Source: an uncultured Alphaproteobacteria bacterium
GTDB lineage: Bacteria; Pseudomonadota; Alphaproteobacteria; HIMB59; GCA-002718135
DNA: 64,000 bases
NCBI GenBank assembly: GCA_902602885.1
Contig: CACKSM010000003.1
Coordinates: forward strand, 1-64,000
Reading direction: 5' to 3'
The position numbers were made by a program, and so were the translations under genes. Of this stretch, positions 1 to 2,072 are shown piece after piece. Below the pieces are notes generated by a model that was given only the letters and a program-made list of their open reading frames with translations, did no database searches and was not told where the DNA came from. Positions within the stretch are counted from its first letter, which is position 1, and each line of letters starts with the position of its first letter.

Positions 1-94
1 ATTTTATGTCTTAATTAGTAACAATTTTTTTTTTTAATTGCTAGGTTTCAAGACAAAACTTTCAAGTATAATTAGTTTAAGGTATAATGAAAAT

Positions 95-173
95 GTTGCT
101 TTGCAACTAAGATAATAAATGCTTTGTGCAATAAGTTATTCGGACCCGGGGGCGGTACCCGGCGTCTCCACCA
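95..173 (+). ncRNA. ssrA: Permuted tmRNA acceptor-piece-like RNA (possibly partial or pseudogene)
   Basis: T-arm CCGGG(146-150)/GGCGGTA loop/CCCGG(158-162), acceptor 3' strand CGTCTCC (163-169) and ACCA (170-173). The 3' strand pairs over 7 bp with GGGGACG at 178-184, giving G3:U70 (Ala identity). A 5' hairpin GTTGC-TTT-GCAAC (95-107) follows a TATAAT at 83-88. The expected coding/tag piece is not visible because thyA starts at 202. Confidence 0.6.
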
Positions 174-201
174 ATATGGGGACGAAATAGGTTTGGGAAA
201 G

Positions 202-1032
202 ATGAAACAATACCTAGATGCTCTGAGATATTGTTATGATAATGGCTCTGATGTTGAAAGTAGAGCGGGTGGTGTTAGAAAGTCTTTTGGTTATCAAATG
301 CATTATGATCTATCAAAAGGTTTTCCTGCTATAACGACTAAAAAACTAGCATGGAAATCTGTAGTTTCAGAATTATTGTGGTTCATCGAAGGTTCAGATG
401 ATGAAAGAAGACTTGCTGAAATTTTATACAATGATTCAAGAGGAAATTTAAAAGATAAAAAAACTATTTGGACACAAAATGCTGAAGCAGATTATTGGAA
501 ACCAAAAGCAAGGTTTGAAGGTGATGTTGGTAAAATTTATGGAGTTCAATGGAGAAATTTTAATGGAGAAGATCAAGTCTTAAATTTAATTAAAGGACTC
601 AAAGAAGATCCAAATGGAAGGCGTCATATAATTTCTGCTTGGAACCCTCCAGAAATTAAAAATATGTCATTGCCAGCATGTCATGCATTTTCACAATTTT
701 TTATTTCTAATAACAAATTAAGCTGCCAATTATATCAAAGGTCATGTGACATGTTTTTGGGAGTTCCATTTAATATAGCTAGTTATAGTCTTTTAACTCA
801 CATGTTGGCTAGAGAGTGTAAATTAGAAGTTGGAACTTTTATTCATTCTTTAGGAGATTTTCATATTTATAAAGAACATTTTGAGCAGGTTAGAATCCAA
901 TTAGAAAGAGTGCCTAAAAAATTACCTGAGCTTCAATTCGAAACAAAAGATTTTTTTAAATACAACGTAAATGATTTTAAATTAATAAACTATCAGCATC
1001 ATGAAAAAATTGATGCTCTGATGAATGTTTAA
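202..1032 (+). CDS. thyA: Thymidylate synthase ThyA
   Basis: MKQYLDALRYC... start like other ThyA; LPACHAFSQFF catalytic Cys region, QLYQRSCDMFLGVPFNIASY. Start trimmed from the ORF track (124) to ATG 202. Confidence 0.95.
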   Translation: MKQYLDALRYCYDNGSDVESRAGGVRKSFGYQMHYDLSKGFPAITTKKLAWKSVVSELLWFIEGSDDERRLAEILYNDSRGNLKDKKTIWTQNAEADYWKPKARFEGDVGKIYGVQWRNFNGEDQVLNLIKGLKEDPNGRRHIISAWNPPEIKNMSLPACHAFSQFFISNNKLSCQLYQRSCDMFLGVPFNIASYSLLTHMLARECKLEVGTFIHSLGDFHIYKEHFEQVRIQLERVPKKLPELQFETKDFFKYNVNDFKLINYQHHEKIDALMNV

Positions 1033-2072
1033 TCCAGAGATTTTTTTAAATTTTTAGCAATTGATATAAATTTTTTTGAAATTTCACCATCTGGATTATC
1101 TATCAAAGCAGGTATTCCCTTATCAGATAGAATTCTTAAATTTGTATCAATAGGAATTTCTCCTAAGAAAGGTATGTTAAACTCTTCAGCTTCTTTTTTC
1201 ACACCATCTTTTGAAAATATATAATGTTTTTGATTACAATTATCACATATGAAATAACTCATATTTTCAACAATACCAAGAATATCAACATTTACTTTTT
1301 TAAACATATTTATTCCTTTTCTAGCATCAGTAAGAGCTACATCTTGAGGTGTAGAGATTACAATTGATCCTGAAAGTTTTGAACTTTGAGCCAATGTAAG
1401 CTGAGCATCTCCAGTGCCAGGCGGTAGATCTATTATAAGATAATCTAATTCTCCCCATTCAACTCCATTAAACATTTGCTCTAATGCTTTCATGACCATT
1501 GGTCCTCTCCAAATTGTAGGAGCCTCAGAGTCAAGAATAAAGCCAATAGACATTAATTTTATTCCATAATTTTCTAAAGGAACAAGTTTTTTGTTTTCAT
1601 TCATTATAGGTTTTTTTGAAATACCCATCATTCTAGGAATGCTAGGACCATAAATATCTGCATCAAGTAAACCAATTTTAAGATCTAGTGAGCTTAATAC
1701 AGTAGCGAGATTTACAGAAAATGTTGATTTGCCAACTCCGCCTTTACCACTAGCAATTGCAACAATATTTTTTGCATCAATTTTAAATCTTTTATTATCA
1801 TTATTATTTGTTTTAGTACTCTCTACATCTGAGTTTATAATTACATTCACAGAAAGTACTCCAGAAATTTGCTCAACATTATTTTTAAGCAATCTTGCGA
1901 TATTTAGGTATAAATCTTCTTTTTGACCTTTCACAAGTAAAGAAATGTTTACATTCCCCTCTTTTACTATTGCTGAAATATTTTGATTTTTAGGATCAAA
2001 ACTAAGATTTGTTTCAGGATCACTAAATTTCTTAGAAAATGTGAAAATTAAAGATAAAATTTCATCAGACAT
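1029..2072 (-). CDS. mrp: Mrp/ApbC/NBP35-type P-loop Fe-S carrier ATPase
   Basis: GKGGVGKSTFSVNLA Walker A, DADIYGPSIPRMMG, CDNC motif near the C-terminus, N-terminal MIP18-like region. Confidence 0.93.
   Translation of the reverse strand: MSDEILSLIFTFSKKFSDPETNLSFDPKNQNISAIVKEGNVNISLLVKGQKEDLYLNIARLLKNNVEQISGVLSVNVIINSDVESTKTNNNDNKRFKIDAKNIVAIASGKGGVGKSTFSVNLATVLSSLDLKIGLLDADIYGPSIPRMMGISKKPIMNENKKLVPLENYGIKLMSIGFILDSEAPTIWRGPMVMKALEQMFNGVEWGELDYLIIDLPPGTGDAQLTLAQSSKLSGSIVISTPQDVALTDARKGINMFKKVNVDILGIVENMSYFICDNCNQKHYIFSKDGVKKEAEEFNIPFLGEIPIDTNLRILSDKGIPALIDNPDGEISKKFISIAKNLKKSLD

Follow-up and report, generated by a model that had tools for sequence, protein, structure and literature searches.

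A circularly permuted tmRNA gene (ssrA) from an uncultured alphaproteobacterium appears to break off soon after its coding half begins and to run directly into thyA, and the question raised by this locus is whether the cell carries a broken or divided ssrA or whether the two genes were joined outside the cell. The window analyzed here is the whole 64,000-nucleotide stretch, G000:C3:1-64000, and its base 1 is base 1 of contig C3.

The ssrA fragment at the window start

A search with Rfam models, as suggested by a first-pass annotation made from the sequence alone, returned a partial alpha_tmRNA match (RF01849) at window 95-214 (71.7 bits, E 1.5e-17), which passes the 50-bit cut-off of that family over model positions 40-193 of 355 only. 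The tmRNA_permuted model matched 116-215 at 58.3 bits. The alpha_tmRNA alignment degraded right after AUAGGUU, the bases modeled past about 195 are folA/thyA DNA, and the genuine ssrA content of the window is 95-195, comprising the acceptor half and the start of the coding half. As an RNA, 83-201 folded only modestly better than shuffled sequences (z -1.73), and the ssrA call is therefore based on homology together with the match to the family. The features of the region are as follows.

1..94, + strand: native upstream/promoter region of ssrA, with 93-99% identity to its counterpart in close congeners
95..173, + strand: ssrA acceptor half (hairpin 95-107, T arm, 3' acceptor strand, ACCA), from the alpha_tmRNA match
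174..177, + strand: spacer ATAT between the CCA end and the 5' end of the coding half (4-9 nt in congeners)
178..195, + strand: first 18 nt of the ssrA coding half (GGGGACGAAATAGGTTTG), remainder missing; nearest congeners identical to ATAGGTTTG
192..195: inverted join, TTTG common to ssrA (+) and the folA end on the other strand, from a three-way alignment
192..205, + strand: last codons of folA (TTTGGGAAAGATGA), the stop overlapping the thyA start, rest missing; from congener locus L010
202..1032, + strand: thyA, thymidylate synthase, intact (PF00303, E 7e-93); collinear with relatives through 30844

The first-pass annotation had recognized in the region a permuted ssrA acceptor half that lacks its coding half, and this was right, including the positions: ACCA ends at 173, ATAT occupies 174-177, GGGGACG occupies 178-184, and thyA begins with ATG at 202. 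The 7-bp acceptor helix formed by GGGGACG, with its G3:U70 pair, was also confirmed, and the nearest relatives share the same sequence. As in alpha_tmRNA, the circularly permuted two-piece ssrA of Alphaproteobacteria, the window holds acceptor half, spacer, and coding half in that order, and it has the T arm, ACCA, G3:U70 pair, and GGGGACGAAATAGG start of the nearest congeners. Unlike alpha_tmRNA, the window gene is cut by the inverted join after 18 nt of its coding half, and it has neither the tag reading frame nor the later pseudoknots; past 195, only the folA end and thyA are present. ARAGORN found no tmRNA in the window, and it gives a complete one in relatives.

Whole-genome searches (alpha_tmRNA, ssrA coding half, DHFR, and FtsZ) also covered the middles of the longest contigs. 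Every absence from the assembly is limited by 13 contigs shorter than 3 kb (about 33 kb) that were read as N and that could hide the native junction. Within the readable assembly, there was no second alpha_tmRNA match and no ssrA coding half elsewhere; thus, the second ssrA or stand-alone coding piece that the first pass had envisaged was not found there. SmpB is intact in the assembly, as expected if the cell has an ordinary trans-translation system.

The native locus and the inverted join

alpha_tmRNA was detected in 43 of 61 genomes, the partial match in the window counted, and all other matches were full length. Each of the ten genomes at least 90% complete carried a complete ssrA, and the genomes with no match were all less than 90% complete. 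The ssrA of congener G026 is complete and permuted and encodes the tag ANDNRLALAA, which is also found in the nearest congeners. At this locus (L010), the order is thyA at 121-951 (-), folA at 948-1436 (-), and ssrA at 1501-1786 (+), with DHFR and ThyA identified by Pfam. The native layout in congeners is likewise folA-thyA in one direction and complete ssrA in the other.

Window 1-195 was 93-99% identical to the ssrA locus of the twelve nearest genomes carrying both pieces, and window 189/192-1032 matched thyA in those relatives. All same-genus genomes with both on one contig (20/20) carry the ssrA part and thyA on opposite strands, and about 0.5 kb, occupied by folA, separates the two matches in the closest genomes. 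By position in relatives, window 1..94 starts just outside the folA start codon. The first-pass annotation had offered a truncated or duplicated ssrA, left as a recombination or integration scar, as one explanation of the locus, and the intact, divergent ssrA beside folA-thyA in all 20 informative congeners speaks against it, as does a join that is inverted, unique, and at a contig end.

The 4-nt spacer had also been flagged as unusual. It is real and normal for the genus, in which the distance from CCA to GGGG is 4-9 nt (mostly 4-5 in the nearest congeners); the distance is 10-13 nt in a neighboring family and 10-47 nt in the few other Alphaproteobacteria in which the pattern matched. We conclude that the short spacer is a genus trait and not damage, and it was dropped as a sign of damage. 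We note that, with a loop this tight (4-9 nt), the route of processing into two pieces is not obvious.

Three-way alignment of the window, native ssrA, and native folA-thyA defined the join. The window reads GAAATAGGTTTGGGAAAGATGAAACA across it, native ssrA reads GAAATAGGTTTGACGGTAATTC at the same place, and the native folA end with thyA reads TTTTGAGATTTGGGAAAGATGAAACA. The window follows ssrA forward to ATAGGTTTG and then continues with the last bases of folA and with thyA in reverse sense; in the nearest congeners, ssrA runs on past ATAGGTTTG into ACGGTAATTC. The BLAST matches of the ssrA part and the thyA part overlap at window 189-195, and the two ends of the join are about 0.68 kb apart in G026. 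The inversion is limited to window bases 1-195, and 189-30844 is collinear with G026 C4 30655-1 (30.6 kb). Allowing up to three mismatches, the junction sequence occurred only in G000 among 110 family genomes, the other 109 being other species and many of them incomplete, and it was absent from the viral contigs searched. The join lies less than 200 bases from the end of a contig in an assembly of 58 contigs that is 75% complete, and the contig start at base 1 was not visible in the first pass.

Beside the join lies a gap of about 9.2 kb: G026 C4 30656-39828 had no counterpart in the compared stretches of G000, except for the 194 inverted bases. In G026, this segment contains folA, the rest of ssrA, ftsZ, ftsA, lpxC, and a fumarase gene; we take the last four to be such from reading the starts of their proteins. 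Family searches of the whole assembly, with the 13 contigs shorter than 3 kb read as N, found neither DHFR nor FtsZ in G000. FtsZ and LpxC are hardly dispensable to a cell, and therefore the gap reflects incomplete recovery.

A scan of G000 contig ends and small contigs against about 0.9 Mb of two congeners indicated nearby inverted joins in two places only, the start of C3 and contig C45 (L152). The C45 join lies at 2145-2153 with TTTT microhomology, and congener G028 has the two parts of C45 (1-2153 and 2145-3042) about 6.3 kb from each other and in opposite orientation, with similar placement in other congeners that have both on one contig. The C45 join is likely another amplification chimera.

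Origin of the join

We conclude, with a probability of about 0.93, that the junction at 192-195 is an inverted chimera formed in vitro at a contig end, most likely during multiple displacement amplification (MDA) of a single cell. Judging from its genus-mates, G000 is probably a single-cell MDA genome: all 21 records with the exact ssrA pattern in the species genome collection are single-cell style AG-/AH- records with NODE contigs, which we take to be single-cell genomes of the GORG-Tropics type. Benchmarks of the GORG-Tropics single-cell workflow measured 1.5 misassemblies per 100 kb (PMC11247762), and read-level chimeras were as frequent with WGA-X amplification as with MDA (PMC5519541). 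Among MDA chimeras from a single E. coli cell, 85% were inverted with an intervening deletion, the segments were mostly less than 10 kb apart, and displaced 3' ends reprimed at 2 to 21 complementary bases (Lasken and Stockwell 2007, PMC1855051). The C3 join is likewise inverted with an intervening segment, joins two segments of one locus that are in opposite orientation (20/20 congeners) and less than 10 kb apart (about 0.68 kb in G026), and has 4 nt of priming homology; both its TTTG and the TTTT of C45 fall within the 2- to 21-nt range, and the C45 join agrees with the published pattern as well. The chimeras of that study were seen in single reads, whereas the C3 join is seen as a contig end.

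We infer a strand switch of the following kind. A nascent strand copying rightward through ssrA would have been displaced with the 3' end ...AGGTTTG. Its TTTG would have reannealed to the complementary single strand nearby, where folA meets thyA (a distance of about 0.68 kb), and extension would then have proceeded the other way, through thyA. The assembler would have taken the chimeric product because the true flank (about 9.2 kb, with folA, the ssrA coding half, lpxC, ftsZ, and ftsA) was unrecovered.

A real inversion in the cell mediated by microhomology would leave the same local sequence. Such an inversion or deletion in the chromosome, breaking ssrA and removing or moving folA, is compatible with the join sequence taken alone, and folA and the ssrA coding half were indeed found nowhere else in the readable assembly. 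It would also require, however, that folA was lost or relocated right beside the join and next to the missing ftsZ, ftsA, and lpxC, and a recovery gap accounts far better for the absence of all four genes. Moreover, the join is in none of the 109 other family genomes, sits at a contig end, and has a similar companion, C45, in the same assembly. We consider the chromosomal inversion very unlikely, and slightly less likely again that a true inversion in this one cell split ssrA and left an orphan acceptor RNA upstream of thyA. If the inversion were true, the cell would possibly be without working trans-translation.

The first-pass annotation had listed an assembly junction among its three options, and the inverted, unique, contig-end join bears that option out. 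Both the contig-end position and the 4-nt shared sequence would suit a computational misjoin by the assembler alone, with no chimeric molecule. Usual assembly k-mer lengths far exceed four bases. Four shared bases are thus far too short, the reads must therefore carry the join, and amplification chimeras show just such an inverted join between nearby segments; the chance of a purely computational misjoin is smaller still. Least probable, to the point of being negligible, is a trans-split or reduced tmRNA, the remaining option, in which the acceptor RNA is expressed alone and the coding RNA comes from elsewhere: the acceptor half is well preserved together with its upstream region and is the single alpha_tmRNA match in the assembly, but up to the break the sequence shares 93-99% identity with contiguous, unbroken genes in close congeners (intact in 20/20 informative ones) with no sign of independent evolution, the coding half was not found elsewhere in the readable assembly, and the inverted, unique, contig-end join comes 18 nt after the coding half begins, so that the 5' strand stays attached to thyA.

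We conclude that the ssrA fragment is real and the junction artefactual, an ordinary tmRNA gene having been cut at a false inverted join. The cell itself most likely carries an ordinary permuted ssrA that is intact, runs divergently from folA-thyA, and encodes the tag ANDNRLALAA or a close one. The locus thereby ceases to count as an example of a broken or trans-split tmRNA, and similar claims from single-cell assemblies can be checked by a simple recipe: how far the feature lies from the contig end, how its parts are oriented in congeners, whether the join has microhomology, and whether unrelated essential neighbors are missing too.

Possible insertions near ssrA and the folA-thyA pair

An integration (att) scar at the window ssrA was rejected, as the join involves no mobile element and only folA-thyA. 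Similarly, insertion of thyA into ssrA as a mobile or phage-borne gene was rejected: thyA is collinear with 30 kb of congener chromosome, and phage matches to thyA reflect distant homology only. A thyA fusion was unsupported.

At L074:2864-2940 (-), congener G012 contains a near-copy of the ssrA 3' end that matches it at 23 of 25 bases and is followed by sequence resembling the native downstream flank; the near-copy lies about 2.2 kb downstream of the intact ssrA (L074 5171-5456). It is att-like, as would remain after an integrative element had entered at ssrA; the insert has a Sel1-repeat-like reading frame, judged by eye, and no integrase was recognized in it.

In G026, the folA stop and the thyA start overlap by 4 bases (ATGA, L010:948-951). 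The overlap suggests that folA and thyA, two folate-cycle genes, may be translationally coupled.
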